Assembly: GCA_035697325.1 (NCBI GenBank)
Contig: DASSDB010000002.1
Location: forward strand, 341,232 to 405,231
Direction: 5' to 3'
DNA from: Candidatus Saccharimonadales bacterium
GTDB lineage: Bacteria > Patescibacteriota > Saccharimonadia > Saccharimonadales > Saccharimonadaceae
Length of the DNA stretch: 64,000 bases
Part shown: one piece after another, positions 67 through 28,161 of the stretch
How positions within the stretch are numbered: the first letter of the stretch is position 1
How the letters are laid out: every line of letters begins with the position of its first letter
Translations under genes and position numbers: made by a program
Notes under the pieces: generated by a model
The model's input: the letters and a program-made list of their open reading frames with translations, nothing else
Told to the model about the DNA's origin: nothing
Database searches by the model: none

Positions 67-99
67 TGGTACGGCGTATTGTATGAAATTAGAACTGAG
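67..99 (-). repeat. Accessory-array repeat, copy R1
   Basis: First of four copies of a ~33-bp repeat (others near 751, 1772 and 2299), all in the same orientation. On the minus strand it reads CTCAGTTCTAATTTC, then a short inverted repeat with a 6-nt centre, then GTACCA. This copy is the most diverged: the centre is ATACGC, where the other three have ACACGC. It lies just past the 3' end of the kinase gene. Confidence 0.85.
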
Positions 100-110
100 T
101 TGGCAACTAA

Positions 111-641
111 CTAGGTGGGTGTTGCGATCTTTATAATGTCTTCCACGACTTGGTCGATCGGTTGAGTAGCGTTAACAAGGTATGCGCCAAGTTTTTCGTA
201 TTCGACCTTGGCTGTTTTTTGTCGCTCAATTAAGATTTCTAGTTCGTGTTTGGATTTACCAACATCGTTGTTTGTGCGAGTTGCTAGACGATGTTTCAGG
301 GTATCTTCATCAATTGTCAGCGCGATGACTTTATCGAATAGATCCCATAACTCGTCCTTATCATTACGTGTAACAGCACACAGAAAGACGGGTTTATCTT
401 CGCTATTTTGCTTTATTTCTTCAATTGTTTTGCGTGGGATCTTCCATGTATGATGTTCGTTCCATTCAGCCGTGCGATTGCTTGACTCAACCCAGTTGAT
501 TCTTTCGCCAGTCTCATTATTAAAAAATGCGGCTAATCCATCCTCGGCTCCGCCATATGCAGTAAAGCCCTTGCGTTGAAGTTCGTGTCTGACGGTAGAC
601 TTTCCAGAACTAGGCATGCCTGTGATGTAGATTAATGACAT
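111..641 (-). CDS. P-loop nucleoside/nucleotide kinase-like protein
   Basis: Protein of 176 aa with a Walker A motif, GMPSSGKST, at residues 8-16, and the size of a small AAA_18/adenylate-kinase-like NTPase. The middle carries DEDTLKHRLATRTNND, resembling the LID-region arginines of small-molecule kinases. Substrate unknown. On the minus strand a TATGAT hexamer sits 6 nt before the ATG and there is no Shine-Dalgarno, so the mRNA is probably leaderless. It is bordered by repeats R1 and R2 and shares no operon with a neighbour, as expected for an independently acquired single-gene unit. Kinase activity is inferred from the P-loop only. Confidence 0.75.
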   Translation of the reverse strand: MSLIYITGMPSSGKSTVRHELQRKGFTAYGGAEDGLAAFFNNETGERINWVESSNRTAEWNEHHTWKIPRKTIEEIKQNSEDKPVFLCAVTRNDKDELWDLFDKVIALTIDEDTLKHRLATRTNNDVGKSKHELEILIERQKTAKVEYEKLGAYLVNATQPIDQVVEDIIKIATPT

Positions 642-998
642 GTGGCTATCATAACAAATAAAATATAACCTTCGAAATAGTTTCCAATTCCAACTTGGCC
701 TATGTAATACTCGAATCAGAATTACAGATCAGAATAATAAATTCTCGAAATGGTACAGCGTGTTGTATGAAATTAGAACTGAGCTAACGGTTTAATAGCT
801 ACAAAGAGATAATTTTAATCTGTGGATTCGGCACAACGATAGTAGAAGGGTTTTTTACCCTTATGCCTAAACCGTTCGACTTATTTCCAGATTTCTTCAT
901 ATATTCATTATACACTGCCTGGTGTTTTTCGAATAGTATAGTAATTTATATTTTGCTTATACTTGCATATACTATCTCGTAAAGTCACAATAAACAAT
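642..998. other. Intergenic region with repeat R2 and promoters
   Basis: No convincing gene. It holds the outward promoter of the kinase (minus strand), repeat R2 at 751-783, a small AAGGG/CCCTT hairpin near 845-861, and TATACT at 968-973, the likely -10 box for the downstream plus-strand gene. An in-frame TTG at 963 overlaps that promoter and is not a credible start. Confidence 0.6.
751..783 (-). repeat. Accessory-array repeat, copy R2
   Basis: Minus strand reads GCTCAGTTCTAATTTC, then ATACA-ACACGC-TGTAC, then CA. It is identical to R3 over most of its length and separates the kinase gene from the membrane-anchored protein gene. Confidence 0.88.
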
Positions 999-1712
999 AT
1001 GTTTCAATCCTTAGAGAATTTTATTAACTCACAGTTCTTTAATGCATTCGTTACTTTGGTTGTGGGATCTTTTGCGTACGGTGTATACAGGAAGGGAAAA
1101 AGAGACGAGAAGCGTCGTGCTGCCAGCGTAGTATTATTAGAAATTGAAGAAGCAGAACAACATCTTTCTAAGGTAAGCGTGAGCACTCCATTTCCATCTG
1201 CTGAGGCAGATCAAGTGAAGCTCATGCCGGTATCGAGTTGGGGCATTTATAAGCATTTATTTATAAACGATTTTGATCGAAACGAAACCGATAAGATATC
1301 GGATTTTTATATGCGCTGTGAAGATTATGATCATGCGGCTACCCTAAAAACGAATATTACGTTTGAACAAACACAGCAAGAACTTCGAACAAATATGCAA
1401 CGTGTATTAGCAGATTATGCAAAAGACTATAATGATAATCTTGAGGCGGCTCAATCAGACGAACGAAAAAGTGAGCTTGAAAAAGCATATATTGAACGTA
1501 GAAAAAGGTTTGTAGATATTTATGGAAACACCTCCGAAACCCACATGTATACATATATACCAATCAAACCATACAATGATGCACAGAATGCGCTACAAGG
1601 CTTAGAACCCAGCCTCTCTCTTACAAGCGTAGGCACAAAGTTGAAATCTATCTCTCGCTCAAGAAGTCTGATAGGGATTATTATAGATAAGCTACGAGGA
1701 CGGAATACCTAA
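999..1712 (+). CDS. Membrane-anchored protein of unknown function
   Basis: Protein of 237 aa from the ATG at 999, chosen because TATACT at 968-973 lies downstream of the alternative TTG at 963. One N-terminal membrane segment (about residues 14-30) is followed by a basic stretch (RKGKRDEKRR) and a long charged, probably helical cytoplasmic part. I do not recognise a family. N-terminally anchored helical proteins of this kind occur among bacterial accessory and defence genes, but nothing here shows such a role. It lies between repeats R2 and R3. Confidence 0.7.
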   Translation: MFQSLENFINSQFFNAFVTLVVGSFAYGVYRKGKRDEKRRAASVVLLEIEEAEQHLSKVSVSTPFPSAEADQVKLMPVSSWGIYKHLFINDFDRNETDKISDFYMRCEDYDHAATLKTNITFEQTQQELRTNMQRVLADYAKDYNDNLEAAQSDERKSELEKAYIERRKRFVDIYGNTSETHMYTYIPIKPYNDAQNALQGLEPSLSLTSVGTKLKSISRSRSLIGIIIDKLRGRNT

Positions 1713-1752
1713 GGATTTCTTGGTCTATTTGAATTAAATTCTAAATCAACTC

Positions 1753-1803
1753 TTAAAAAACATAAGCGCTATGGTACAGCGTGTTGTACGAAATTAGAAC
1801 TGA
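1753..1803 (-). repeat. Accessory-array repeat R3 with tRNA-like flank
   Basis: The core (1772-1803) matches R2 and R4 and contains a perfect GTACA-ACACGC-TGTAC inverted repeat. The flank at 1753-1776 (AACATAAGCGCTATGGTAC) nearly repeats the sequence at the 3' end of tRNA-Arg (AACATAAGCACTATGGTAC, 3008-3026). The two copies bracket about 1.25 kb holding the VOC and peptidase E genes and R4. This links the repeat array to the tRNA 3' end. Confidence 0.85.
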
Positions 1804-1851
1804 ATTGTTGGTATAAGCAGGGGTGTGCGGATGATTTGTTACAATGAGTAC

Positions 1852-2229
1852 ATGAGCAATATAAAAAGAATTCATTCAAACCTGTACTTCGTTAAAGACT
1901 TAGGTGCAACAGCAAATTTCTACAAAAATCTCGATTTTGAGGTGGCTGCGACGGATGATGCCGTGCGTGTTAAATTAAATGATTTTACTCTCGCATTTAT
2001 GGACGAGAAACAAGTAGAGATCGCGGATGAAGCAGGAGTTACACCCAAAGGCATTGGTGTATTTACATATATAGAGACAGAAAATGTTGATGAACAATTT
2101 AACTTAGTAATAAATAACGGTATTAAAGTATCGAGTGAACCCAAGGATTGGCCTTGGGGTAAGCGTGAATTTGCGGTTAAAGATCCCGATGACTATAAGC
2201 TCGTCTTCTACTCGTCAATTAAAGGTTAG
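1852..2229 (+). CDS. VOC superfamily (glyoxalase/bleomycin-resistance-like) protein
   Basis: Protein of 125 aa from the ATG at 1852; an upstream in-frame start at 1825 would add nine unconvincing residues. The pattern is a typical single-domain vicinal-oxygen-chelate fold: an N-terminal RIHSNLYFVKDLGATANFYK segment followed by a C-terminal half ending in DPDDYKLVFYSS. Such proteins act as dimers in metal-dependent isomerisation, dioxygenation or antibiotic binding; the substrate cannot be told here. It is a single-gene unit between R3 and R4, and VOC genes are common in mobile cassettes. Confidence 0.8.
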   Translation: MSNIKRIHSNLYFVKDLGATANFYKNLDFEVAATDDAVRVKLNDFTLAFMDEKQVEIADEAGVTPKGIGVFTYIETENVDEQFNLVINNGIKVSSEPKDWPWGKREFAVKDPDDYKLVFYSSIKG

Positions 2230-2298
2230 AACTAAATAACAGATAAGCCTACAAAATAGTCTATAAGTTCGAACTGAATCGTATCTATTAACGAGATT

Positions 2299-2331
2299 TG
2301 GTACAGCGTGTTGTACGCTATTAGAACTGAG
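2299..2331 (-). repeat. Accessory-array repeat, copy R4
   Basis: Contains the perfect GTACA-ACACGC-TGTAC inverted repeat, with three changes upstream of it relative to R3. Its end overlaps the 3' end of the peptidase E gene: the last codons and the TAA stop of that gene lie partly in the repeat. Confidence 0.86.
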
Positions 2332-2959
2332 CTGGCACTTGGCCGTTAACGATTCGATGCGTACCGTTTTCAAATATAACTGCTTGCGAATCTTTTAGCT
2401 CGATAATTTCTTCTTGCTGGTGCAGCTTCTTGAATAATGGCACAACTTCAGAGAATTCTGGATTATCGAGATGGGGAAGAATGCTAAAAGGAACGATACC
2501 TATACCGCTATTAATTACTTCTTCGGAAAAGCCGGGTTCGTCGGCGGATTCTATGCCGTTTATAGACAATCCAGCCACAAGTGCTCCTGCACTGTCGCCA
2601 CCATATATAATTCCTTGATTCAGCAGATCTTGGATGATCTTATCAAAGCCGCTGCGTTTCATTTCATAGCGAAGCATGAAGGTATTACCGCCCATTGCCC
2701 AAATAAAGTCGTAATTTGACAGCTTATTTTTAAGTGCTGATTCTTCCATGTAATTCTTGAGGTCGACGACTTCAATATTCAATCCAAGACTTTTCATGTA
2801 TTCAATACGGCTATTGATTGTAAATTCCCATGCTCGTTTACTATAGTAATCTTTGGCATTTGGAATGAGCGCAACTGTTGTGGTATCTAGAGGTTTTCCT
2901 AAAAGTGTTACAAGTTCTTCAGGAGCTGGAATGCCTATTGAGGAGAGATATAACTTCAT
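2321..2959 (-). CDS. pepE: Peptidase E (dipeptidase E, family S51)
   Basis: Protein of 212 aa, close to the usual ~220-230 aa of S51 peptidases, which cleave Asp-X dipeptides in the cytoplasm. The nucleophile motif GGDSAGA places the catalytic Ser at 123; the upstream MGGNT motif (about 89-93) and a later PHLDNPEF histidine segment (about 162) fit the family. On the minus strand TATTAT lies 6 nt before ATG, so the transcript is probably leaderless. The gene ends inside repeat R4, so its last residues (about VPAQF) may derive from the repeat. Confidence 0.9.
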   Translation of the reverse strand: MKLYLSSIGIPAPEELVTLLGKPLDTTTVALIPNAKDYYSKRAWEFTINSRIEYMKSLGLNIEVVDLKNYMEESALKNKLSNYDFIWAMGGNTFMLRYEMKRSGFDKIIQDLLNQGIIYGGDSAGALVAGLSINGIESADEPGFSEEVINSGIGIVPFSILPHLDNPEFSEVVPLFKKLHQQEEIIELKDSQAVIFENGTHRIVNGQVPAQF

Positions 2960-2975
2960 GTATCTATAATATCAA

Positions 2976-3000
2976 ATAAAAAAGACTTCCGGAGAAGTCC
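2976..3000 (-). terminator. Terminator of tRNA-Arg(TCT)
   Basis: Minus strand: GACTTC-TCCG-GAAGTC followed by a T-run. The same hairpin follows tRNA-Lys (17390-17405) and recurs at 21392-21407. Confidence 0.9.
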
Positions 3001-3020
3001 CCTTTAAAACATAAGCACTA

Positions 3021-3096
3021 TGGTACCCCGGGTTGGAATCGAACCAACGGCCAAAAGCTTAGAAGTCTCTTGCTCTATCCACTGAGCTACCGGGGC
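3021..3096 (-). tRNA. tRNA-Arg(TCT)
   Basis: Cloverleaf on the minus strand: acceptor GCCCCGG, D-arm TAGCTCAGTGGATAGAGC, anticodon loop CTTCTAA (anticodon TCT, reads AGA), T-arm GTTGG-TTCGATT-CCAAC, discriminator A and encoded CCA. The first acceptor pair is G-U. Its 3' end and downstream flank resemble the array repeats, making it the likely original integration target. Confidence 0.93.
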
Positions 3097-14945: not shown

Positions 14946-15049
14946 CTTGCTTAAAATTATAGCTCATAGTCTGAAGATATTGCTAATCAGGAATGTGGTA
15001 TATTGTACCGGTAATCGATCTGGATTTTCATCTATGAAAGGCCGAACTC

Positions 15050-15442
15050 GTGGTTAAGCGGATTTCGAAAGAAGAGCTTGTCGAGCGCTTGGAAATTGCC
15101 CAGGCTCTGCTTGAGCAATTTGGGCTGACAGCGAGCTTGAATGAGCCCGGTTTCACTCCCTTGGAAGCGGTTGGTCTGGCGGCGGTGCCGGCCGACTATC
15201 GCATCAGGGTTGCTGCCGAGCTCAGCCAGTCCTACAACGGCAACAAGGGCATCCTCTACGTCAGTGAGGCCACCCAGGATTGCCTCCGTAGCGTGGGCGT
15301 GCGCAAGCTGGATGAGTATCGAGACGAGGTCAAGGCTGCCCTGGACAGGATTTTGGACGGACCTCGCGCCGGGCTACAGTCGGACCGGCCGGGGCTCTTG
15401 GAGGACACCCTCGCGGCGGTCCTGAGTTCCAGGAAGTCCTGA
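15050..15442 (+). CDS. GC-rich hypothetical protein
   Basis: Protein of 130 aa starting at GTG 15050 with GAAAGG upstream. The gene is much richer in G and C than its neighbours, with third positions mostly G or C. The N-terminus (KRISKEELVERLEIAQALLE) is predicted helical; no domain is recognised. It stands alone, ends in a 13-bp hairpin, and lies just upstream of tRNA-Arg(TCG), as other GC-rich genes here lie next to tRNAs. Confidence 0.68.
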   Translation: MVKRISKEELVERLEIAQALLEQFGLTASLNEPGFTPLEAVGLAAVPADYRIRVAAELSQSYNGNKGILYVSEATQDCLRSVGVRKLDEYRDEVKAALDRILDGPRAGLQSDRPGLLEDTLAAVLSSRKS

Positions 15443-15450
15443 TCGATGGG

Positions 15451-15486
15451 TATCTGACGTCGGCATCTACTGTCCGACGTCAGATA
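15451..15486 (+). terminator. Long hairpin after a GC-rich gene
   Basis: Thirteen-bp perfect stem TATCTGACGTCGG/CCGACGTCAGATA about 10 nt past the stop codon, not followed by a T-run. Confidence 0.75.
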
Positions 15487-15560
15487 CTCTATCATTAAAA
15501 TGTATTAATTTTAGCCTACCTGTAAGAACTAAAATTTGATGAACGTCATGGTGGTGTAAA

Positions 15561-15579
15561 CAGATTAATCTGGTATAAT
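15561..15579 (+). promoter_or_regulatory. Promoter of tRNA-Arg(TCG) with palindrome
   Basis: TATAAT (15574-15579) precedes tRNA-Arg by 17 nt. A perfect CAGATTAATCTG palindrome (15561-15572) ends one base before it and could be an operator. Confidence 0.6.
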
Positions 15580-15596
15580 TATTGAAGCATTAGTAC

Positions 15597-15673
15597 GCAC
15601 CCGTAGCTCAGTGGATTAGAGCACTGGTCTTCGGAACCAGGTGTCGTAGGTTCGAATCCTACCGGGTGTACCA
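15597..15673 (+). tRNA. tRNA-Arg(TCG)
   Basis: Cloverleaf with anticodon stem-loop CTGGT-CTTCGGA-ACCAG (anticodon TCG), T-arm GTAGG-TTCGAAT-CCTAC and encoded ACCA. The membrane protein ATG follows 12 nt after the CCA, so the two may share a transcript. Confidence 0.94.
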
Positions 15674-15685
15674 TAGGTATCATTT

Positions 15686-17221
15686 ATGACAAATATGTTA
15701 AATAATTTTGGCCAGCAGTTTGCGGGTGCACTTCGCGGGGCGGAGGCCCGTATCGATGCAACGGCCGCAAATGACGGTCATGCGCAAAAGGTGCATGTTA
15801 CCGGCGCAGGCCGGACGCTTACCTTTGCCTACGAACAGCTTCGTAACGCCGCAGAATACACTGAAGAGCATCTCCTTTTACAGCGGGCTATCCGTCGTTT
15901 TTATAAACGACTTTTCTTAACACGTGATGATGGGCGGATCCGATCAAGTGGAGAAGAATTGATCGTTGAGTTGACGCTCGCTGGCTATCTCCAGAATGAC
16001 AGTGTTCCCGTTCATGCGGTTGAAAAAATCAGCAAGATGGCGGTGGAGTATTATGCGGCTCATACTAATTATAATAAAGACGCGTGGACGATCGATATCT
16101 TAGCAGTAGAGGCCGAACGTTTGCTTAACGATGACACTAAGCGCATCACGTTTTCGCAATTTTCGTACGATCATTTCTTGGCGAGTATCGATAAGCAGAA
16201 AGTTCTTGGCGAACCGATCCATCACTATGAGGTCGCTTTGTTTGTTGCGGTTCAGCGCGCACTCTTGAAATCTGATCAGGCATCAATCCGCGCCAGCCTT
16301 TTACGACGCTACGAGCAAACGCCAAATACAGGTGCGTATCGAACAACCAACGAAATGATCGATAAGGTATTTGCGGCCACAACCACAGAGCGCCTTATCC
16401 GCGCGGTTGATCGCCGCGGTGCACCGTTTCGTATCTTATGGCGGCTTATCGATGAGCACGAGGATTTCCTGCGTATTCTTAACTCGCGAGAGCAATTCCT
16501 TTCGGCCTACGAAACGCAAATTAATAAAGAATATGCACGTATTGATAAACGTATTAATCGTGGAATCATCAAAAGTGTTATTTTTCTGATCATTACTAAA
16601 GTATTAATCGGTGTATCTATCGAAGTACCGTACGATTATCTTATTCACGGTGCTATCGTGTGGTTGCCGCTGGCTATTAATCTTTTATTCCCACCTGTCT
16701 ATATGATTCTGCTTCGTTTCACACTTACCCAGCCAAGCTCGGCTAATACGCAGGCACTCATTGATACGATCGACGAGCTCTTTTACGGTAAGGACGATGC
16801 GCTTGTCTTGTCGCAGCGTACTAATCGCGGGTTTGGGACTGCTTTCAATGTCCTCTATTCGCTCTTTTTCCTGGTCATCTTTGCAACCGCCGCATGGGGG
16901 CTTTACACACTTGGTTTCTCGGCCTTACATATGCTCATTTTCTTCGTTTTTCTTTCTACCGCCAGCTTCCTCGGTTTCCGCCTTTCTCGTCAGATTCGCG
17001 AACTCGAAGTGGTGCAAGGACAGCAAGATGGCTTTACGGTCATCCGTGACTTCCTCTACATTCCATTTGTAGTTGTTGGTCGCTGGATGAGTGAAAAATA
17101 CTCTCGTATCAATATCGTTGCCACGGTGCTCGATATGGTCATCGAATTACCGCTTAAAACCGTGCTCTACCTCATGCGGCAATGGGGCGCCTTCATCAAT
17201 AGCAAAAAAGACGAACTCTAG
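15686..17221 (+). CDS. Multi-pass membrane protein of unknown function
   Basis: Protein of 511 aa. A ~290-residue soluble N-terminal part (helical, many Arg and Glu) is followed by about four membrane segments: one around SVIFLIITKVLIGVSI, one around AIVWLPLAINLLFPPVYMIL, and a pair around FNVLYSLFFLVIFATAAWGL and ALHMLIFFVFLSTASFLGF. A conserved-looking basic/amphipathic tail follows. I do not recognise a named family. No Shine-Dalgarno is evident; it may be co-transcribed with tRNA-Arg. Confidence 0.75.
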   Translation: MTNMLNNFGQQFAGALRGAEARIDATAANDGHAQKVHVTGAGRTLTFAYEQLRNAAEYTEEHLLLQRAIRRFYKRLFLTRDDGRIRSSGEELIVELTLAGYLQNDSVPVHAVEKISKMAVEYYAAHTNYNKDAWTIDILAVEAERLLNDDTKRITFSQFSYDHFLASIDKQKVLGEPIHHYEVALFVAVQRALLKSDQASIRASLLRRYEQTPNTGAYRTTNEMIDKVFAATTTERLIRAVDRRGAPFRILWRLIDEHEDFLRILNSREQFLSAYETQINKEYARIDKRINRGIIKSVIFLIITKVLIGVSIEVPYDYLIHGAIVWLPLAINLLFPPVYMILLRFTLTQPSSANTQALIDTIDELFYGKDDALVLSQRTNRGFGTAFNVLYSLFFLVIFATAAWGLYTLGFSALHMLIFFVFLSTASFLGFRLSRQIRELEVVQGQQDGFTVIRDFLYIPFVVVGRWMSEKYSRINIVATVLDMVIELPLKTVLYLMRQWGAFINSKKDEL

Positions 17222-17295
17222 ACAAAATAGCGTCTTTCCGGTATAATTCTTAGGAGTAAATGCCACTAATATTTTTAGATGCATCTTACAAATAC

Positions 17296-17372
17296 GGGCC
17301 ATTAGCTCAGCTGGTTAGAGCACCTGCCTCTTAAGCAGGGTGTCCTGAGTTCAAGTCTCAGATGGCCCTCCA
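17296..17372 (+). tRNA. tRNA-Lys(CTT)
   Basis: Cloverleaf with acceptor GGGCCAT/ATGGCCC, anticodon stem-loop CCTGC-CTCTTAA-GCAGG (anticodon CTT), T-arm CTGAG-TTCAAGT-CTCAG and encoded CCA. Its last 11 bases and the following terminator are duplicated 4.0 kb downstream. Confidence 0.94.
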
Positions 17373-17411
17373 GGATATTATTTACAAAGGACTTCTCCGG
17401 AAGTCTTTTTG
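17362..17411 (+). repeat. Left att-like direct repeat (tRNA-Lys 3' end plus terminator)
   Basis: Fifty bases beginning in the tRNA acceptor stem. The first 21, including ATGGCCCTCCAGGATATTAT, are identical at 21364-21384; the remainder differs by an A/T shift and one loop base. It contains the tRNA terminator hairpin GACTTC-TCCG-GAAGTC with T-run (17390-17410). A repeat that starts inside a tRNA 3' end is the usual mark of tyrosine-recombinase integration. Confidence 0.85.
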
Positions 17412-17433
17412 GTGCTATGATCTTTTCTCTATG

Positions 17434-18015
17434 CTACCGGCTAGCGTTTACTGGCCTGGCTTCAATAACTTCGCGCCCAGCTTGCTCTCCTCTTAAATCA
17501 CAAGAGTATAATGTCATCTTAGCATCTGTGGAGGGGCCCTCAATGGCAATGGCGTAACGATCTACTTGGTATTTGCGGGTAATCTTGTAGTCAAAACGCT
17601 TGCCATTATAATCTACGTAAATATCGCCGCCTTCTTTTAGCTTATCGATGTGGTAGAAGGGCGATTTTTCATTTGTGTGTTGAGGGGTGATACCCATTTG
17701 AAAACGGTGAGCACTAAGCACAAAGTTGCCGCCTTTTTCGGGGTTACCATTCTCTGGCTGACGATGCCACGCGCCTTTTTCGAGCACTGCTTCAGTATCA
17801 CCTTCTACAACAGCAACATCAACGCCGATGGCAGGAATGTAGAGCCGATTTTCTTTTATCTCGGGCGCTTTCTCCAGCTTCTGTTCAATTGCTTGGGGCT
17901 GGACAGTAGGGATGTAGGCCGGTGCTAAAGCAACAAGAAGTATATAAATACCACTCACAAGGGCCAGGCAGCATGGGATGAGCCAAAGTTTGCGCGGGGC
18001 GAACAGTTTCTTCAA
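17434..18015 (-). CDS. Sortase
   Basis: Protein of about 193 aa from TTG 18015, preferred because AGGAAG lies 4 nt upstream and it starts two bases after the stop of the surface-protein gene; an upstream TTG at 18063 has no ribosome binding site. One N-terminal membrane segment (LWLIPCCLALVSGIYILLV) is followed by the sortase core: catalytic His in LSAHRF, Cys in TLYSCDLRG and Arg in GREVIEA. The Cys motif fits class D/E-like housekeeping sortases. Its substrate is very likely the adjacent LPSTG protein. Confidence 0.88.
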   Translation of the reverse strand: MKKLFAPRKLWLIPCCLALVSGIYILLVALAPAYIPTVQPQAIEQKLEKAPEIKENRLYIPAIGVDVAVVEGDTEAVLEKGAWHRQPENGNPEKGGNFVLSAHRFQMGITPQHTNEKSPFYHIDKLKEGGDIYVDYNGKRFDYKITRKYQVDRYAIAIEGPSTDAKMTLYSCDLRGEQAGREVIEARPVNASR

Positions 18016-18016
18016 G

Positions 18017-19993
18017 CTACTTCCTATCGTGGTGCTGTTGCCTTCGAGCCAAAAGAAATCCAATACCCGACAAAACGGCTAATCCCGCGGCTACGATTAT
18101 AGGGAGTATAATATTGCTTCCTGTACTCGGTAGGGGAGTTGTGTTCACGGTGTGATTCGTCTGGCAGTCGGAATCACTAACCACAAGCGCTCCGTTTACG
18201 ACATCGGGATGACAGCTAGTGGAATGAGCTGCAGTAACAGTATTTAAAAGCTGACTATTGCCTAGCGTGCCAAGTGCTTTAATTTTTACTGTATAGGCTA
18301 CCACTACAGATTGTCCAACAGGTATGTCACCAACAAACTCAAGGATATTTCCGTTAATGGTTGCCGTGCCCGCCGAGCCGGGGGTAACGGTTGGCATACC
18401 TTCTACGGTCGCATCGTCGAGTATGTTCGATAGATCGTCATCAATCTTGAGGTTTGTGAGTGCGGTAGCGCCAGTATTTTGGATAGTTATCGTATAGGTA
18501 ACATTTTGGCCGGGGCTTACCATGCTTCCTTCTGCTGGGTTGGCGGTTTTGCTCGCATCGTAACTTCCTACTTGCACGAGAACGTCTTCCACTTCACCAC
18601 CAGTTACTGGCTCGGTGGGAAGGGGATTAGCTACAGTACCACTGAACACACGAAATCGCGCATAAGTATTAGTGGTAAAAGTGGTGCTTGGGAAGTTCAG
18701 CTCATAGCTCACCGTTCCCGAATTTGCCGGAATACTAGTCGTGACTCGCTCTCCTGCTTCGAAAATCTGATCGTTATCCAGATCGATCCAGCCAGCAAGC
18801 GTTGCGGCTGACGCACTGGTATTCGTGACTTTAACCGGCACCCTTAAAGCAGTGGGAGTACCAGGTGTTGCAACGATACTTGTTACGCCGCGCTCATCAT
18901 CGACATATGCAGACCCTTGGTGATCGTTATCGTCACCTTTTGCCTGCACACCTGGAAAGCCATCGGCTTCGATATCAATGTGCGTACCAAGCATTAGTGG
19001 GGCGGTACTTGTATTAATATTGAAGTTGGCAATACTGTGTCGAGGGCCATCGCTGCCAATTAATGTCTGGTAGGTGTCTGGAGCATCACCGAGGTCAACT
19101 GGTACTGATGCTAAGGCGCAACGGGCACCATCATTACTATTTGCATCGCTTGCTCCTAGCTGCTGTGCTGTAAATGGTGGCGTGCCACTTAAATCAACTC
19201 GCCATACTCTGCCAGACTGATGTGACGACATATAGAAGTTACCATCTGGATCGGCATAGACTGCCCCCATGTTGCGATCGGCGGCCGCGGTAATATTTGA
19301 TACAACACCTATGGTTGAGTATGTTTTAGTTGTACGATTAAAGGCAACGATAGTGATATTTGTACCGTTGTCCATACCTCTATATAGACTATCGGTGCCG
19401 GGAATATATGCCCAGTCAGTACCTTCATTACCAGTTGGATTTGCGGTGTTGCCACTTCCAATGAAAGTAGGGACTGGGGTAGTAAGATCGACTTCATACC
19501 AGGTTGTTGTGCCACCCACCGTAAAGAACCAATAGTGGCCGTTCTCATCTACATCACCGGCGAAGATATTGGTTGTTGGCCCTGAGTAGCTGCTAATGGT
19601 AAGTGATTCAGGGGCTGCAGAAAAGTCGCTCTTAAAGCGCATGAAAGTTCCGCTACCTGTTAGATCCCAGCCGTAAAAGTAGTTATCATTAGGATTGTAG
19701 CCGACTGCGTTAAAGTTGCGGGCAGTTATCGTTCCGGCGGATGAATCGGTTCCGGTTACCATATCGATGGCTCGAACGTCAGTGTCTGGATTTCCTTGGT
19801 ATTTAAATATAAATCCATTTGCGCTACAGCCAAGGTATGGTGCGGCTTGTGCTTGCTTACCCGGTAAAAGCACTGAGATCATCATTCCGGCAAGGATAAT
19901 AACCGAGAGCATACCGAAAATAAAGGGTAACTCCATGTATTTTTTTATTTTAGCAGCGATCTCTTTGCGGATCGTTTTTTCTCGAATCATCAC
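18017..19993 (-). CDS. LPSTG-anchored surface protein
   Basis: Protein of 658 aa. The N-terminal membrane/signal segment (FIFGMLSVIILAGMMISVLL) is followed by a beta-propeller-like region (about 50-300), a GEVED-type domain (LGDAPDTYQTLIGSDGPRHS to TGGEVEDVLVQVG), and a DUF11-like repeat (SMVSPGQNVTYTITIQNTGA). The C-terminus is a classic sorting signal: LPSTG at about 621-625, a hydrophobic span, and the RRQQHHDRK tail. AAGAGG precedes the start. It is the first gene of the operon with sortase and sits in the tRNA-Lys-bounded block. Confidence 0.9.
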   Translation of the reverse strand: MMIREKTIRKEIAAKIKKYMELPFIFGMLSVIILAGMMISVLLPGKQAQAAPYLGCSANGFIFKYQGNPDTDVRAIDMVTGTDSSAGTITARNFNAVGYNPNDNYFYGWDLTGSGTFMRFKSDFSAAPESLTISSYSGPTTNIFAGDVDENGHYWFFTVGGTTTWYEVDLTTPVPTFIGSGNTANPTGNEGTDWAYIPGTDSLYRGMDNGTNITIVAFNRTTKTYSTIGVVSNITAAADRNMGAVYADPDGNFYMSSHQSGRVWRVDLSGTPPFTAQQLGASDANSNDGARCALASVPVDLGDAPDTYQTLIGSDGPRHSIANFNINTSTAPLMLGTHIDIEADGFPGVQAKGDDNDHQGSAYVDDERGVTSIVATPGTPTALRVPVKVTNTSASAATLAGWIDLDNDQIFEAGERVTTSIPANSGTVSYELNFPSTTFTTNTYARFRVFSGTVANPLPTEPVTGGEVEDVLVQVGSYDASKTANPAEGSMVSPGQNVTYTITIQNTGATALTNLKIDDDLSNILDDATVEGMPTVTPGSAGTATINGNILEFVGDIPVGQSVVVAYTVKIKALGTLGNSQLLNTVTAAHSTSCHPDVVNGALVVSDSDCQTNHTVNTTPLPSTGSNIILPIIVAAGLAVLSGIGFLLARRQQHHDRK

Positions 19994-20106
19994 ATGCCCT
20001 CTTTTGTTATCACGTTATCATAACTCTACATGAAATTGCTTATTCTTACAACTTGCGAGCAGCTAGCTTCGTGCTTTTTTGTGAGAGCCAGCTTATACTA
20101 AGCAAT

Positions 20107-21279
20107 ATGAGGAAGCGCTTCGTCATCATAGGTATTGGAGCCATTATATTACTGGCGGGGGTTGGCGGTTTGTTAGCTTATCAGAACGACAAAAAAGATA
20201 ACAACCCCGTCGAGACTTCATCGCAATCGCAAAAACCGCAGGAGCAACCCAGTCCTTCTCCGCCTCCGCTATCCTATCCCGATGAGGTTTTGGCAAAAAT
20301 GACCCTCCGCGATAAAATTGCTAGTCTTTTTCTCTTTCACTCGCCGGGCACCAACCTAGCCCCCTATCTTGCAGCCCATAAGCCTGCCGGACTTATCTTT
20401 ATGGGCGACAACATTCCCGCAACACTTGCCGAACTTCAGTTTGAGACCAAAGCACTCATCACCAATCCGAAACTCCCGCCTTTGCTGGCTGTCGATGAAG
20501 AGGGTGATACGGTAAAACGCTTGGCTGCGGATACCTTTCCAGGCGCTCTTACGTTGCCCGACATGCCGCCTGCAACCACCAGGGATGCGTTCGGCAAACG
20601 TTCCGATCTGCTAAAGAGTGTGGGGCTGAATCTTAATTTTGGTATCGTGGCGGATGTCACTGCAAATCCGCGTTCGTTTATCTTTCCGCGTGTTTTAGGT
20701 ACGACGCCTCAGACTGCCAGTGAGCGTGTTGCTCAAGCCGTAGAGGGTTCAAAAGGAAAAACGCTCTCAACGCTTAAACACTTCCCGGGTCATGGGGAAA
20801 CGAATGCCAACTCCCATACCTCTATTCCTACAGCTTCGACCAGCTACCCCGACTGGCAGCAACGCGTCGCTCTTCCTTTTAAGGCTGGAATCCAAGCTGG
20901 TGCCGACATGGTGATGTTCGGCCATTTACGCTACGAGGTAGTCGACGACGCGCCGGCTTCATTATCAAAAAAGTGGCACGATATTGCACGAAATGAGCTC
21001 GGCTTCAAGGGCATAATAGTGACAGACGATATGATTATGCTTCAGAATTCCGGTGATAGCAGGTATAAAGACCCAGTAGTAAATTCCATTACCGCTTTGC
21101 AGGCGGGCAATAATCTTTTACTTTTCGTAACTGATCACCAAGATGAAGCTTCTGCTATCGATCCATCCGTGCTCATAAATGGTATAGAGGCAGCGGTAAA
21201 TGATGGTCGTCTCGACGAGACGGTAATAAATGAAAATGCTAAAAAACTTCTTACTCTACGTTCCCAACTTGCCAGATAA
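20107..21279 (+). CDS. Membrane-anchored GH3 family enzyme (NagZ-like)
   Basis: Protein of 390 aa from ATG 20107, placed behind TATACT at 20094-20099. An N-terminal anchor (VIIGIGAIILLAGVGGLLAY) precedes a glycoside hydrolase family 3 barrel: LLAVDEEGDTVKRL, LKHFPGHGETNANSHTSIPT and GIIVTDDMIM, the last holding the usual nucleophile Asp. NagZ-type enzymes use an Asp-His dyad in a DSH motif as acid/base; here it reads NSH, with Asn for Asp. The enzyme probably acts outside the membrane on wall or host glycans. Last gene of the tRNA-Lys-bounded block. Confidence 0.85.
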   Translation: MRKRFVIIGIGAIILLAGVGGLLAYQNDKKDNNPVETSSQSQKPQEQPSPSPPPLSYPDEVLAKMTLRDKIASLFLFHSPGTNLAPYLAAHKPAGLIFMGDNIPATLAELQFETKALITNPKLPPLLAVDEEGDTVKRLAADTFPGALTLPDMPPATTRDAFGKRSDLLKSVGLNLNFGIVADVTANPRSFIFPRVLGTTPQTASERVAQAVEGSKGKTLSTLKHFPGHGETNANSHTSIPTASTSYPDWQQRVALPFKAGIQAGADMVMFGHLRYEVVDDAPASLSKKWHDIARNELGFKGIIVTDDMIMLQNSGDSRYKDPVVNSITALQAGNNLLLFVTDHQDEASAIDPSVLINGIEAAVNDGRLDETVINENAKKLLTLRSQLAR

Positions 21280-21363
21280 TCTCAAACTTTTTTCTACTGC
21301 TCTTGATCTAGGTCTACCTTGAGTACCTGGTCTCTCGTTATTATGGTTGCGATAGCGACCACT

Positions 21364-21413
21364 ATGGCCCTCCAGGATATTATTACAAAAGGACTTCTTC
21401 GGAAGTCTTTTTG
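21364..21413 (+). repeat. Right att-like direct repeat
   Basis: Copy of 17362-17411 without a tRNA upstream: the bases before it cannot fold as a T-arm. It keeps the final 11 bases of tRNA-Lys and a complete terminator (GACTTC-TTCG-GAAGTC, T-run, 21392-21412), which would also terminate the GH3 gene. It marks the right edge of the 4-kb block. Confidence 0.83.
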
Positions 21414-21477
21414 TTAGTTACTAAGCACGAGATTTTATACTATGATAAATAAGTATCATTCCAGTTGAGGAGGGTAA

Positions 21478-21825
21478 ATGCTTGGCAGTCACTTGCGGGT
21501 TATGCTCGACAGGTGTGTGGAATGCATGGCCGTTGGCGCCGAAGACCGACAGCTTGACTTCCTTCCGGTATGTAGTCAATTAGACGGTTGTCGACTAGAG
21601 TGTGCCGCCTACTTGGCGAAAAGGCTCGAGCAATTCACCAACAATCGCCTCACCGTACGAGCGCTATCTGGTGCTGCCATTACAGTAAGCCCAGGAGGCC
21701 TCGATAATCTGTTTTTGGCAGTTTGCGCTGCGTCGACACCTCCTGGGCCGATCACTGTCCTCGCGGATGAGATGATGCCATACATTATCTCTCCGGATAA
21801 AGGAATAGGCTGCTCAAGGATATAG
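21478..21825 (+). CDS. Cys-rich GC-rich hypothetical protein
   Basis: Protein of 115 aa with GAGGAGG upstream of ATG 21478. Seven Cys are spread along the chain (RCVEC, VCSQLDGC, LEC and others), suggesting metal binding or disulfides; no signal peptide is visible. No family recognised. GC-rich, Shine-Dalgarno-led single gene ending in a hairpin, directly beyond the tRNA-Lys att-like repeat. Confidence 0.62.
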   Translation: MLGSHLRVMLDRCVECMAVGAEDRQLDFLPVCSQLDGCRLECAAYLAKRLEQFTNNRLTVRALSGAAITVSPGGLDNLFLAVCAASTPPGPITVLADEMMPYIISPDKGIGCSRI

Positions 21826-21834
21826 CAGAGAAGT

Positions 21835-21870
21835 CCTCAGGCTAGCGGCCAAAAGCTGCCGGTCTGAGGG
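21835..21870 (+). terminator. Hairpin after a GC-rich gene
   Basis: CCTCAG/CTGAGG outer stem with inner GC pairing around a CAAAA loop, about 10 nt past the stop, no T-run. Confidence 0.6.
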
Positions 21871-21893
21871 CTACTAGCTTACCTCTCAGCAAT

Positions 21894-21915
21894 AAAAAGA
21901 CGTACAAGTGTACGT
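21894..21915 (-). terminator. Minus-strand terminator
   Basis: ACGTAC-ACTT-GTACGT followed by CTTTTT on the minus strand. No convincing minus-strand gene precedes it; the GC-rich stretch 21930-21997 could be a short transcript or the remains of a gene. Confidence 0.55.
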
Positions 21916-22060
21916 AGTGATTTTTCAGGAGTGTCGACCGCACGGTGGCGGTTCGGGGCCGGGTGATGTCGGTGATCGTGGTGAGCATCTCTGCCATAAT
22001 ATTTTCGTAAAAAATTACCCCTGATGATTTTTGAAAAAAGTCCTCTGCTATACTAGAAAA

Positions 22061-22522
22061 ATGAACTCATCAACTCTATTTCAGTACTGCCAAAAACTCA
22101 TTGTTCTATCAAACGACAAGTCGAAAGTATTGTTAGCACGCCGTAAGGGCGAGATGGATTACGACGGGGTCTATTCATTTATTGGCGGCAAGATGGAGGT
22201 TACCGACGAAACTATTCTGGCGGGGATGAAGCGTGAAAAAGACGAAGAAATCGGCAAGAATGCCAAGATAGCAGTATTACCTAATGAAACCTACAATTTA
22301 CTTTTTCGTAAAAAAGACGGTAATAGTATGATATTGCCGCATATTGCGGGCATGTTTATATCTGGTGATATTACTTTGAACGACGAGTATAGTGATTTTG
22401 AGTGGGTAAAGATAGACGAACTTGAAACATTTGGGCCAAAGATCGAGAACATTCCTGAACTCACAAAATGGGCTCACGATAAACTACAAAAGAGTGATGA
22501 GTCTCAATTAGTCCAGATTTGA
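22061..22522 (+). CDS. Nudix hydrolase
   Basis: Protein of 153 aa from ATG 22061. TATACT sits 7 nt upstream, so the in-frame start at 22031 lies outside the probable leaderless message. The Nudix box is GKMEVTDETILAGMKREKDE followed by EIG: the catalytic REXXEE core is intact, but the spacing between the leading Gly and the first Glu is one residue longer than consensus. N-terminal LIVLSNDKSKVLLARRKG is typical of MutT-like NTP pyrophosphatases. Substrate unknown. Confidence 0.86.
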   Translation: MNSSTLFQYCQKLIVLSNDKSKVLLARRKGEMDYDGVYSFIGGKMEVTDETILAGMKREKDEEIGKNAKIAVLPNETYNLLFRKKDGNSMILPHIAGMFISGDITLNDEYSDFEWVKIDELETFGPKIENIPELTKWAHDKLQKSDESQLVQI

Positions 22523-22670
22523 CTTCATGACTTACGAGGATATTAGTCATGTATTATTAATATTAATTTCTATTCTTCGATGAGGGGATGCCTGGTGGAA
22601 AATTATTTTTACCTGCGCCTGGCGGGTATCTTTTTATGCGATTGTTTTTGTGAGTTTACAGATTTTTTGT

Positions 22671-22701
22671 GTCCGGTTCCGCAGCGTACGCAGAACCGGA
22701 C
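22671..22701 (-). terminator. Hairpin at the end of a GC-rich membrane protein gene
   Basis: Nine-bp stem GTCCGGTTC/GAACCGGAC with a GC-rich loop, 5 nt past the stop codon of the minus-strand gene. No T-run on that strand. Confidence 0.65.
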
Positions 22702-22705
22702 ATCA

Positions 22706-23134
22706 CTAGAAGTCGACGCAGGTCATTCCCTGGCCTTTGGGGGCGAAGATCTCGCCAATCTGAAGCGCGGGAATGGCTCGCATGGCCCATATAGCTGTTC
22801 CGTTTCCTGCTCTGCATCCCGCCAAGGCAACTAAGGAGGAAGGGAAAGCAAAAAGAATCGACGTGACAAGGGGAACGATCAACAGCCACCGAAGTTGTCT
22901 GTGTAATACTGCCATAACAATCGGAAAGATATAGCTTGCGGCCATTGTGAGGATAATGTAAATCAGGAGTGTCGCACTGTTCTCTCCGATGAGTTGGCCT
23001 ATGAGAGCCAACAGCGCCAGGATTCCCAAGAAAATGGCGAACCCGGGAGCAGACACCATCCAGGCTATGAAAAGCGCGAGAATGCCAACTTCGAGTTTAC
23101 TCAAAACGTAGACCACCTTGTTTGCGAGGAACAA
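22706..23134 (-). CDS. Small integral membrane protein
   Basis: Protein of 142 aa with about four hydrophobic segments (VGILALFIAWMVSAPGFAIF, LGILALLALIGQLIG, LLIYIILTMAASYIFPIVMA, LLIVPLVTSILFAFPSSLVA). The C-terminus (RAGNGTAIWAMRAIPALQIG) is less hydrophobic and holds two Cys. No family recognised. Richer in G and C than the flanking Nudix genes; single gene with a hairpin at its 3' end. Confidence 0.65.
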   Translation of the reverse strand: MFLANKVVYVLSKLEVGILALFIAWMVSAPGFAIFLGILALLALIGQLIGENSATLLIYIILTMAASYIFPIVMAVLHRQLRWLLIVPLVTSILFAFPSSLVALAGCRAGNGTAIWAMRAIPALQIGEIFAPKGQGMTCVDF

Positions 23135-23190
23135 CTGCCCGTAGTGTTAGGGCATGCCTTACTATACCAGATATTTGGTATCATTAACGT

Positions 23191-23712
23191 ATGAAGCAAT
23201 TACTGACATTGAGAGACGAAGACGTATTTACTGACGCTAAAAACCTTACACCCGACGGATGGTTTACGCGTAATGCAGCAAGGGCAGTACTCTTTTCGGA
23301 TACAGGAGAAGTATATCTGCTCAAAATGTCGGCCCGTCATTACCATAAGTTGCCTGGCGGAGGAGTGAACGAAGGCGAGCCACGAGAAGATGCGCTGTAT
23401 AGGGAATTGCTTGAGGAGGTTGGCTGTCCCGCCACGATAGAAAGTGAACTTGGTGAGATAGTTGAGTATCGTAACGGTATGCAAATGGAGCAGCACTCGT
23501 ATTGTTACATCGCAAGGCAAAGCGCACCTTTAGGTGAAACTGCTTTGGAAGAAGGTGAGCTTGAAGAGGGCGCCGAGACTGTAGTAGCCAAGAACATTGA
23601 TGAAGCAATCGCACTTCTTGAAAATGATGAACCGACAAACTACGGAGGACATTTTATTAGGCAGCGTGATCTCTGTTTTTTGCGTGAAGCAAAAGCACGG
23701 GTAAATGGCTGA
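23191..23712 (+). CDS. Nudix hydrolase
   Basis: Protein of 173 aa with a consensus Nudix box, GGGVNEGEPREDALYRELLE followed by EVG. The N-terminal extension (LRDEDVFTDAKN) resembles Nudix enzymes that act on modified nucleotides, but specificity cannot be assigned. A -10-like TATCAT lies 6 nt before the ATG, so the message is probably leaderless. Confidence 0.9.
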   Translation: MKQLLTLRDEDVFTDAKNLTPDGWFTRNAARAVLFSDTGEVYLLKMSARHYHKLPGGGVNEGEPREDALYRELLEEVGCPATIESELGEIVEYRNGMQMEQHSYCYIARQSAPLGETALEEGELEEGAETVVAKNIDEAIALLENDEPTNYGGHFIRQRDLCFLREAKARVNG

Positions 23713-23757
23713 TACACTTGGTAATTAATAATTTAGAAAACCTGTATACTTAAGAGC

Positions 23758-24120
23758 ATGAAGAAAGAGCTTTTATATGGTGTGGGCGGACTTATTATCG
23801 GGAGTGTTATCGCCGTAGCAGTAACTTGGGCAATAACGAATAACCAAAGCACGAGCTCGCAGATGCATAATATGGACGCGACAAACGGAAAAACAGGTGA
23901 TGATTTTGATAAGGCATACCTTGATACTATGATTTCGCATCTGGAGATGTCGGTCGATATAGCAAAGCAAGCAGGCACTTCCGCCAAGCACGACCAAATC
24001 AAAATTGCCGCTGCCCAGCTTATTGAAACACAGTCACGTCAGATCGACGCAATGAAAGCATGGCAGATGGATTGGGGTTATATTATTAATGGAATGAACC
24101 ATAGGCAAATGCATCACTAG
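23758..24120 (+). CDS. DUF305-family membrane-anchored protein
   Basis: Protein of 120 aa. An N-terminal membrane anchor (LLYGVGGLIIGSVIAVAVTW) precedes a short DUF305 domain: FDKAYLDTMISHLEMSVDIA, then ETQSRQIDAMKAWQMDWGY. The family usually has an HH pair in MIPHH and further Met/His residues that may bind copper; here it reads ISHLE, so part of the site is missing, though the Met/His-rich tail NGMNHRQMHH remains. TATACT lies 10 nt upstream of ATG. It overlaps the convergent DedA gene by 4 bp. Confidence 0.8.
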   Translation: MKKELLYGVGGLIIGSVIAVAVTWAITNNQSTSSQMHNMDATNGKTGDDFDKAYLDTMISHLEMSVDIAKQAGTSAKHDQIKIAAAQLIETQSRQIDAMKAWQMDWGYIINGMNHRQMHH

Positions 24121-24758
24121 GATTTTGTAGAGTGAGCTTTTATTTTCTTGTATCGCCATATCAGCCACATGGCGATTAGAAGAACAAGAATGACGGTGGT
24201 AATCTGCGTGGTCGTGTCTAAGTGGCCGAGAAGTTCTGCCGTTTGTACGCCGGAATATCCAAGACCGAGGAAAAATATCGCTGCCACGGCTGAGCCAAGG
24301 GCGGATGAGGTAAAAAATATGGAAAGTGGGAGTCTGATAAACCCACTTCCTAACGATAAAAGCGTGCCGGGAAAAACAGGCAGCGCGTGCATCGTAAAAA
24401 GAATCCACCAGCTTTTTGCCGGTTTTTCCTTGCCTAATTTTATACCGTAGGATTCAATTTGTCTGTGAGTATAGCCAAAAAACTTGCGGCCATTTGCAAA
24501 TAAGACATTCTCTAATTTATCGGCAAGCAGATAAAGAATATATCCACTGAGAGCCCGTGCAACCCCTGATATAAGGGCGAGTACTCCCAAGTACCACCAC
24601 GGTAAGGATTGGACATGAGCGGCAATACCGGCAGGGAGAAGGACGAGGAGGGCGGGTATGGGTGAAATGATCTCATCGATGCATGTGCCGATAAAAACAA
24701 ACAATTCCAGCGGAACGGTCTTCATGAGCTGCTCTAAGAAATGGGCGATATCATTCAT
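24117..24758 (-). CDS. DedA/VTT family membrane protein
   Basis: Protein of 213 aa with the DedA pattern: an N-terminal re-entrant region (DEIISPIPALLVLLPAG), an Arg-containing segment (ISGVARALSGYILYLLADKL), a YTHRQIESYG motif and a C-terminal helix with GLGYSGVQTAELLG. DedA proteins take part in envelope homeostasis and undecaprenyl-phosphate or lipid flipping. Third gene of a minus-strand operon; its start overlaps the end of the upstream gene by 8 bp. Confidence 0.85.
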   Translation of the reverse strand: MNDIAHFLEQLMKTVPLELFVFIGTCIDEIISPIPALLVLLPAGIAAHVQSLPWWYLGVLALISGVARALSGYILYLLADKLENVLFANGRKFFGYTHRQIESYGIKLGKEKPAKSWWILFTMHALPVFPGTLLSLGSGFIRLPLSIFFTSSALGSAVAAIFFLGLGYSGVQTAELLGHLDTTTQITTVILVLLIAMWLIWRYKKIKAHSTKS

Positions 24759-26232
24759 ATGCGTTTACTTTCTGCTCAGCTGCTTCGAATTGTACCACCC
24801 AACCTGTTTGACGGATACTTTTATAGACACCATTTTGCAAGAAATCACCATTTGCTGTAAATGTTTCGGGGAAACCGCGTGTTTCGGCCATTTTTTGACG
24901 ATATTTTTGCACGGCTTGCGTGGCATCAGTAAGGTAGCTGAGATTATGAGTTTGTTCGTAGGTATCGGCGAGCAGCGTAATGTATTGCGCGCCCCAATAG
25001 CTCCATATGGCATCCCCTCCATAATTTGGAACGAATGTTTTTACTACCCAGGGGACATCCTTTGCACTTAGCTTAGCCTGGTATTTTATAGGGAATGGGT
25101 CGGCAATATGTTGGTCACGAATAAAGTGAATGCTTTTTTCAATATAAGGGAGGTGGGCCGGATTGGCGGCGCTAAGAAAGCCGGTGGGAAGTGCGATAAG
25201 CCAATCTGAAGAATAGTTCGTTTTTGGGTCGTGATTGCGGATATCATCTTTGAAGTGCCCTTCGCTTTCATCCCAATATCGCGCCAGGATCACTTCATGG
25301 AGGGCTGCTAGCTGGGAATCGGGTGTGCTTTGGATTCCAAGGTCGTTTGCGAGCGAAAGAGTCTTCCACAAGATGACATTATCGTAAAACGAACTTTCGC
25401 GGGTAACTCCATCGCGGGCAGCCGCAAGGTGGAGATCATTACGGATAAGCTTTGTATGAGGATCCTGAACTTGAGAAAGATAAATGCCGAGCAATTTTTG
25501 CAGGTCCGCTCGCCTTGAGGCGAGGATATCCCGCACTGTTTTTGTCGTTTGAAGCTTATAAGGACTGTTTTTGTAGGGTGAATCGTTTTGAAGTGCATTA
25601 AATGCATACAGTATGCCATAAAGTGTATCTGAGGGTACCGAACCGGGGTGAACTTCTGTTAAGGCAACCGATTTAGCTCCCGTTGGGACGATTGTAGTCG
25701 TCAACGTATCGCCATTTGTGAACGCGTCAAGCGCATACAGTGCCGACTGAAGATAGATACGCTGGCGATTCTCCCAATCTTTCTGATTATGAATTGTCTT
25801 AGGATCGAGCAAAGAATTATAAAAGACACCAAGGTTGCGCGGATATAACACACTAAATTGATCACCTGAAATGAGGTAGGGTTTTGAAGGATCGAAGCGA
25901 AGATTGTGAATATAGTCGATGATCTCATTGGGGTTGGAGGTGGGTGCCTTTGGGCTGCCCGTGTACGCATTCTGTACTATGAGAAAACCTGATTTGTAGT
26001 AGCCCACAGCTTGTGCGGCAACCCCACTGTACACATGAAGATCGAATTGTTTTTTAGCTTCGATCCTATTTTCCGCTACGGTCGTGATGTACGGTTGCTG
26101 AACAATATTCCAGCTGGCGTAAGGGTTGGTAAGAGAAAGCCATATATGAAAAATACCTATCACCACAATTGCAATAAGTGCGGTGAAGAGGTATTTCTTT
26201 TTTTGCGGAGTCTGTTTTTTAGACTGAGCCAT
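24751..26232 (-). CDS. Membrane-anchored six-hairpin-like protein
   Basis: Protein of 493 aa with a single N-terminal anchor (YLFTALIAIVVIGIFHIWLS) and a large extracytoplasmic domain. Repeated helical segments with aromatic and acidic residues (SLDPKTIHNQKDWENRQRIY, YDNVILWKTLSLANDLG, YGGDAIWSYWGAQYITLLAD, TGWVVQFEAAEQ) look like an alpha/alpha-barrel of the six-hairpin glycosidase type. The glycosidase call is inference; I cannot identify catalytic acids with certainty. It sits between a DUF5684-like gene (15-bp gap) and dedA in one operon. Confidence 0.6.
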   Translation of the reverse strand: MAQSKKQTPQKKKYLFTALIAIVVIGIFHIWLSLTNPYASWNIVQQPYITTVAENRIEAKKQFDLHVYSGVAAQAVGYYKSGFLIVQNAYTGSPKAPTSNPNEIIDYIHNLRFDPSKPYLISGDQFSVLYPRNLGVFYNSLLDPKTIHNQKDWENRQRIYLQSALYALDAFTNGDTLTTTIVPTGAKSVALTEVHPGSVPSDTLYGILYAFNALQNDSPYKNSPYKLQTTKTVRDILASRRADLQKLLGIYLSQVQDPHTKLIRNDLHLAAARDGVTRESSFYDNVILWKTLSLANDLGIQSTPDSQLAALHEVILARYWDESEGHFKDDIRNHDPKTNYSSDWLIALPTGFLSAANPAHLPYIEKSIHFIRDQHIADPFPIKYQAKLSAKDVPWVVKTFVPNYGGDAIWSYWGAQYITLLADTYEQTHNLSYLTDATQAVQKYRQKMAETRGFPETFTANGDFLQNGVYKSIRQTGWVVQFEAAEQKVNAYE

Positions 26233-26246
26233 ATGTGAAAATACGA

Positions 26247-26786: not shown

Positions 26787-26850
26787 TGTTGCTATTTCTC
26801 CCCTATTGTTATCTTGAGCTCATTGTAGCACGGTGGTAAAATAAAGCATA

Positions 26851-28034: not shown

Positions 28035-28161
28035 ACGTAGTTCTTATAGTAGCACCATATGGCATATTCATACAGATGCTGGCATTTATACCGGTTATGT
28101 GTATATTTTCAAATCTTACTAGATAATTTATAGTGAATGGCTGAAGGATGTAACTATATCT

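Follow-up and report, generated by a model that had tools for sequence, protein, structure and literature searches.

The window, as the whole analyzed stretch of 64,000 nucleotides is called here, belongs to a nearly complete 1.03-Mb genome of the Saccharibacteria and contains a 4-kb block behind a tRNA-Lys(CTT) gene. The block and its surroundings consist of the following features:

15686..17221, plus strand: conserved upstream neighbor of 511 aa, the synteny anchor (comparison of the locus with relatives)
17296..17372, plus strand: tRNA-Lys(CTT), the anchor gene, with an encoded CCA (ARAGORN)
17362..17411, plus strand: repeat copy 1, comprising the last 11 nt of tRNA-Lys, the flank GGATATTATT and a hairpin terminator; left end of the proposed cassette (repeat comparison)
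17434..18063, minus strand: sortase, cargo (PF04203, E = 5e-21)
18017..19993, minus strand: LPSTG-anchored surface protein, probable sortase substrate, cargo (GEVED, DUF7927, DUF11 and LAVTG-type sorting-signal models)
20107..21279, plus strand: GH3 NagZ-like beta-N-acetylhexosaminidase with an N-terminal membrane anchor, cargo (PF00933, E = 2.5e-47)
21345..21374, plus strand: right-end junction, the 19-nt non-tRNA motif GGTTGCGATAGCGACCACT followed by ATGGCCCTCCA (matrix rank 1 in 64 kb)
21364..21413, plus strand: repeat copy 2, comprising tRNA 3' end, flank and terminator; inferred to be the left end of an older neighboring insertion
21414..26232, no strand given: remainder of the variable interval until the 26247 gene and folD, with lineage-specific content (NUDIX and others)

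The two repeat copies are identical in 46 out of 50 nt (92%, E = 1.8e-14 in a whole-genome comparison), including the first 21. The repeat starts with the first nucleotide of the acceptor 3' strand of tRNA-Lys, contains 11 tRNA nucleotides including the CCA and extends 39 nt beyond the CCA through the hairpin terminator. A direct repeat of the tRNA 3' end is present at the far boundary of the block, no tRNA was identified ahead of this second copy (ARAGORN, window) and a scan of the tRNAs of the genome revealed no comparable tRNA-end copies on their upstream side. Only the genes for the sortase, the LPSTG protein and the NagZ-like GH3 enzyme are enclosed by the two copies, and the sortase gene starts only 22 bp past the left repeat. 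A foreign base composition of the block was rejected, as its GC content displays no anomaly (47.7% compared with 47.8%).

The sortase assignment is well above the curated Pfam cut-off (75.1 bits vs. 26.6), the LPSTG motif and hydrophobic tail of the surface protein and the membrane anchor of the GH3 protein were read from the sequence, and the match of the GH3 protein to PRK05337 is under the cut-off of that model. Sortases are common in the family (51 out of 151 genomes) and the block sortase is related to them, while a sortase tree placed it nowhere with support. The LPSTG protein gave only partial matches in the search of relatives, and GH3 proteins of the block type are patchily distributed (16 out of 151 family genomes, about five of them matching closely) and located at other places. 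Several relatives (G001, G009, G029 and G023) carry a sortase beside rmuC and NUDIX genes, whereas the rmuC-NUDIX locus of the genome studied here (L199 2984-5987) contains none. The block may therefore have replaced or relocated the rmuC-linked sortase function, a possibility that the tree leaves undecided. Elsewhere in the genome (L147 7134-14912), another sortase gene precedes that of a surface-like protein of 2061 aa.

An earlier note, made from the sequence alone, had described the 50-bp repeat with its identical first 21 bases, the lack of a tRNA at the second copy and the three enclosed genes (a sortase, its probable LPSTG substrate and a membrane-anchored GH3 enzyme). These claims held. 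The role in surface remodeling that it proposed remains an inference: the cargo is predicted to act in surface display and cell-wall processing, and its function is untested. The comparison of gene phylogenies that it suggested is unresolved for the sortase.

The tRNA-Lys locus in relatives

The gene order tRNA-Arg, 511-aa gene, tRNA-Lys, variable stretch, 26247-like gene, folD and response regulator is common to the representatives of three sister genera (G029, G023 and G061), and the variable stretch contains different genes each time but never the block. In the one other member of the genus that was compared (G001), the tRNA-Lys gene is identical over 77 nt with the identity ending at the CCA, and NUDIX and nitrilase-like genes are located behind it. 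Among the other loci compared, folD directly follows the 511-aa gene in L037 and L038, and the order in L034 is 511-aa gene, 26247-like gene and folD. The sortase/LPXTG/GH3 trio is absent from the syntenic place at all loci read (G001, G029, G023, G061 and L034-L038). The absence of the three genes from relatives, which the earlier note had put forward as a check, was thus confirmed, and the finding that would have refuted its reading, relatives that all carry the genes together with both repeats, was not made.

The flank and terminator behind tRNA-Lys are of one conserved type in the genus member and the three sister genera. This type is absent from the window, where both repeat copies carry another type, and an ancestral terminator shifted further downstream was not found in the window either. 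Since neither window copy has the conserved flank of the relatives, at least two events are inferred to have occurred behind tRNA-Lys. Of the single-copy empty site that the note had also proposed to look for, no clean joined example was found, because both the flank and the genes behind tRNA-Lys vary by genus.

Right-end motif and cassette arrays at other tRNA genes

A matrix was trained on the tRNA-Lys junctions of four other genomes (G042, G058, G039 and G089), using only the 20 nt before the last tRNA-derived bases. With this Lys-only matrix, 21345-21374 ranks first among all positions of the 64 kb on both strands (16.0 vs. 13.0 for the next position). The consensus of the Lys-type motif is AGTTGCGATAACGTCCACTA, and five other genomes have equivalent right-end motifs in the same position behind tRNA-Lys. 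Within the collected DNA, the motif scores at least 12/20 at 8 out of 71 distinct GGCYCTCCA sites, where about 0.15 are expected (0.22% of random positions reach this score), and all eight are located downstream of tRNA-Lys in six genomes including that of the window. The junction in G042, a member of another family, bounds an element that carries a serine recombinase. As a caveat, the Lys junctions of the other genomes were found via a pattern from the first arrays, and discovery and test are not fully independent. A matrix lacking the Lys junctions was too weak as a detector, placing the Lys site of the window only 6th of 116 CCA-ended sites, which indicates that the motif varies between tRNA types. 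No matches to the junction motifs, to relatives of the G042 recombinase or to relatives of the block sortase were found in IMG/VR.

Tandem arrays with regular junctions are present behind other tRNA genes of the window and of a sister genus:

3021..3096, minus strand: tRNA-Arg(TCT), anchor of the second window array (ARAGORN)
67..3020, minus strand: four one-gene cassettes behind tRNA-Arg(TCT), with junction ends at 2299, 1772, 751 and 67
L273 172-9336: tandem cassettes behind tRNA-Trp of G023 (GH16, AlkZ-like, SET, 2-hydroxyacid dehydrogenase and others)
L286 3268-10215: six junctions behind tRNA-Arg(TCT) of G023, with genes unlike those of the window array at the same tRNA

The cassettes behind tRNA-Arg(TCT) in the window measure 702, 507, 1001 and 664 bp and encode an S51 peptidase, a glyoxalase, an unknown protein of 249 aa and an AAA_18 protein; the GC content of the array (67-3096) is 38.4% compared with 47.8% for the window. 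A matrix derived from other genomes ranks 21345-21374 first in the window, followed by three of the tRNA-Arg(TCT) sites, with a fourth at rank 7. The tRNA-Trp array of G023 contains at least 9 junctions that are 0.5-1.7 kb apart and mostly enclose single genes; AAGTTCGAAGTRCGTCCAYKAG precedes GGGGCTGCCA at these junctions and a hairpin usually follows. Tandem insertions parted by the same repeat are seen in the tRNA-Arg array of the window and in the G023 arrays, and the Lys block displays one junction and the replaced flank only. Across the tRNAs of three genomes (G000, G023 and G029), tRNA-end copies were found downstream and none upstream, the inverted matches being those of one tRNA-Ser gene to another. 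A hairpin with a T-run follows 14 out of 28 junctions that score at least 12, compared with 25 out of 500 random positions. Several insertions of this kind, the block among them, are present in the genome.

Further arrays are located behind tRNA-Gln in the same genome (L206 7290-9870 and L203 6545-10012), where one cassette of about 0.65 kb consists of a single serine-hydrolase gene between 16-bp repeats. The post-CCA flanks TAGTGCTTA.., SGATATTAT.. and AGCATAAGC.. recur across tRNAs and genomes (L273 5180 and 7615, L028 3011, L286 5963), a possible hint of cassette movement between tRNAs.

Recombinases and competing explanations

No integrase was identified inside or adjoining the block, and no remnant of a serine recombinase was found in 15000-28500. 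Elsewhere in the genome, where the earlier note had suggested that an integrase be sought, there are one Xer-like tyrosine recombinase (PF00589, C2:16240), which is distant from the two window arrays, and a single large serine recombinase (PF07508) in a separate island at tRNA-Gly(GCC) (7 kb, L172 6781-13928). The gene of the latter ends within the tRNA on the opposite strand, and a 66-bp repeat of tRNA end and flank delimits the island, an anatomy like that of the Lys block. The flank of the island is similar to the 3' portion of related recombinase genes (G041 and G017), so that the far copy here, too, has the appearance of an older sibling's left end, possibly reflecting two successive insertions. 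This recombinase was rejected as the direct mobilizer of the block, its element being without the end motif (score -7.8).

In 36 out of 51 cases (a few loci were counted twice), the end of the serine-recombinase gene lies within a tRNA of the opposite strand. The last codons of such genes (L143, L173, L174, L177, L184, L224 and others) are antisense to the tRNA 3' end, so that the C-terminus of the recombinase depends on the tRNA used. Four loci have a serine recombinase at tRNA-Lys (L143, L173, L174 and L037), and elements of this kind are located at the tRNA-Lys 3' end in G026, G053, G042 and L037; in these relatives, but not in the block, the recombinase overlaps the left attachment site. 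The G042 protein contains Resolvase, Recombinase and zinc-ribbon domains. A PF07508 match is absent from three genomes with junctions (G029, G039 and G037) and a PF00589 match from a genome with two junctions (G058), and the system thus follows no single recombinase family. Nearly all junction-bearing genomes, including those without serine recombinases, encode an Xer-like PF00589 protein.

The 4-kb block is most likely an insertion cassette without an integrase, which gained entry at the tRNA-Lys(CTT) 3' end by means of a recombinase acting in trans, probably of a sibling serine type. The island without an integrase that the earlier note had inferred is thereby supported, as part of a wider cassette pattern. 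The repeat, the end motif, the absence in relatives, the replaced flank, the arrays at other tRNAs and the G042-type element with the same right end are shown. The route of entry is inferred. A circle of the cassette would join to the tRNA 3' end via its own tRNA-end copy, and the left end of the cassette would provide a new tRNA 3' end and terminator, so that the tRNA would remain intact and properly terminated. The old tRNA 3' end would be pushed downstream, directly behind the right-end motif, and cassettes would accrete successively behind several tRNA genes in Saccharibacteria. The enzyme would most likely be a tRNA-targeting large serine recombinase from sibling elements, which is favored because no other recombinase was found in physical linkage with the motif; given the three junction genomes without a PF07508 match, this step remains an inference. 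No excised circle was observed, and the circular intermediate and the order of accretion are likewise inferred.

A bolder reading, about as likely as not, is that Saccharibacteria operate a system resembling an integron in which no integrase is resident. Cassettes of mostly one gene, marked by a conserved right-end motif of 20 nt and often equipped with a terminator of their own, would be caught in tandem behind several tRNAs by trans-acting, tRNA-targeting large serine recombinases and exchanged between tRNAs and between the families of the order.

An unlikely alternative is that the block is the remnant of a single ordinary tRNA-integrated element whose own integrase (serine or tyrosine) next to tRNA-Lys was deleted. 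The serine-recombinase elements at the same tRNA end in relatives and the right-end motif common to the block and the G042 element favor this view. It is opposed by the lack of a recombinase remnant around the block, by the 22 bp that leave the sortase gene so close to the left repeat and by the many one-gene cassettes, in this and sister genomes, that have no room for an integrase.

Two further explanations are very unlikely. The repeat might be a duplication in which site-specific recombination played no part. Natural transformation with illegitimate recombination at the tRNA-terminator would be one example, and a tandem duplication with subsequent deletion another. The absent integrase and the host-like GC content are compatible with this, and relocation is conceivable given that the sortase is related to those of the family and the rmuC-side sortase is missing. 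However, the repeat begins exactly at the 3' acceptor strand, a non-tRNA end motif is common to several families, and arrays with regular junctions exist. Alternatively, a host Xer-type tyrosine recombinase might move cassettes at tRNA ends, in line with the near-ubiquity of PF00589 proteins among the junction-bearing genomes. Against this stand the two junctions of G058 without a PF00589 match and the serine recombinase of the sole Lys element that has both motif and recombinase. There is also no obvious two-arm dif layout at the junctions; a dif/Xer-like core was sought by eye only and no convincing match was seen.

Comparison with known systems

Given their tiny genomes and their life on other bacteria, how Saccharibacteria gain genes is an open question. 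A recognizable cassette end offers a sequence handle for listing cargo, finding the recombinase that moves it and testing exchange. The cargo of the block, a sortase, its candidate substrate and a hydrolase of cell-wall sugars, could plausibly serve in contact with the host bacterium. Insertions that accrete behind an RNA gene, some of them without an integrase, are already known from ssrA islands, SCC and tRNA additive islands. Three features were not found described in the open-access literature searched: a conserved end motif that is not tRNA-derived, the occurrence of this motif in several families of Saccharibacteria, and arrays of mostly one-gene cassettes at multiple tRNAs. This is weak evidence, as most subscription papers and all preprints were outside the search.

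Tycheposons of Prochlorococcus (cited in PMC10872708) are likewise cargo islands at tRNA genes of streamlined genomes; they differ in having a tyrosine recombinase (xerD), none of which is present in the block, and a size of 4-200 kb (PMC10872708). Integron cassettes resemble the arrays in being mostly one-gene and in encoding accessory enzymes (NUDIX, glyoxalase, APH, hydrolases), but the arrays have a tRNA anchor, tRNA 3' ends as junctions and mixed gene orientation. No IntI-like integrase is present in the block, and the lone PF00589 protein of the genome is remote from both window arrays. The additive flexible islands of Ca. Methylopumilus (PMC10872708) and Ca. Actinomarinales (PMC7771536) share the streamlined genomes, the small cassettes at tRNAs and the tRNA-end repeats, which in Ca. 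Methylopumilus occur even at tRNA-Lys(ctt) (PMC10872708). By comparison, neither a conserved non-tRNA end motif nor a linked serine recombinase is mentioned in the relevant passages of these two papers.

The SCC elements of Staphylococcus use large serine recombinases (CcrA/CcrB). They resemble the cassettes in having a single conserved gene whose 3' end is the insertion site and in forming composite tandem arrays parted by direct repeats (in part PMC3146451), but their anchor is the protein gene rlmH, the elements are larger and ccr genes are usual. The ssrA islands of Dehalococcoides (PMC3146451) are also tandem insertions behind an essential RNA gene with direct repeats of its 3' end. An integration module is missing from about half of them, which are presumed to be mobilized along with their neighbors by accretion, and dsiB is described as overlapping the attachment site in the way that the serine recombinases of Saccharibacteria do (PMC3146451). 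In contrast to the single tmRNA site of these islands, Saccharibacteria use several tRNA genes and mostly one-gene cassettes of 0.4-1.5 kb, with a conserved non-tRNA right-end motif and often a terminator after the junction.
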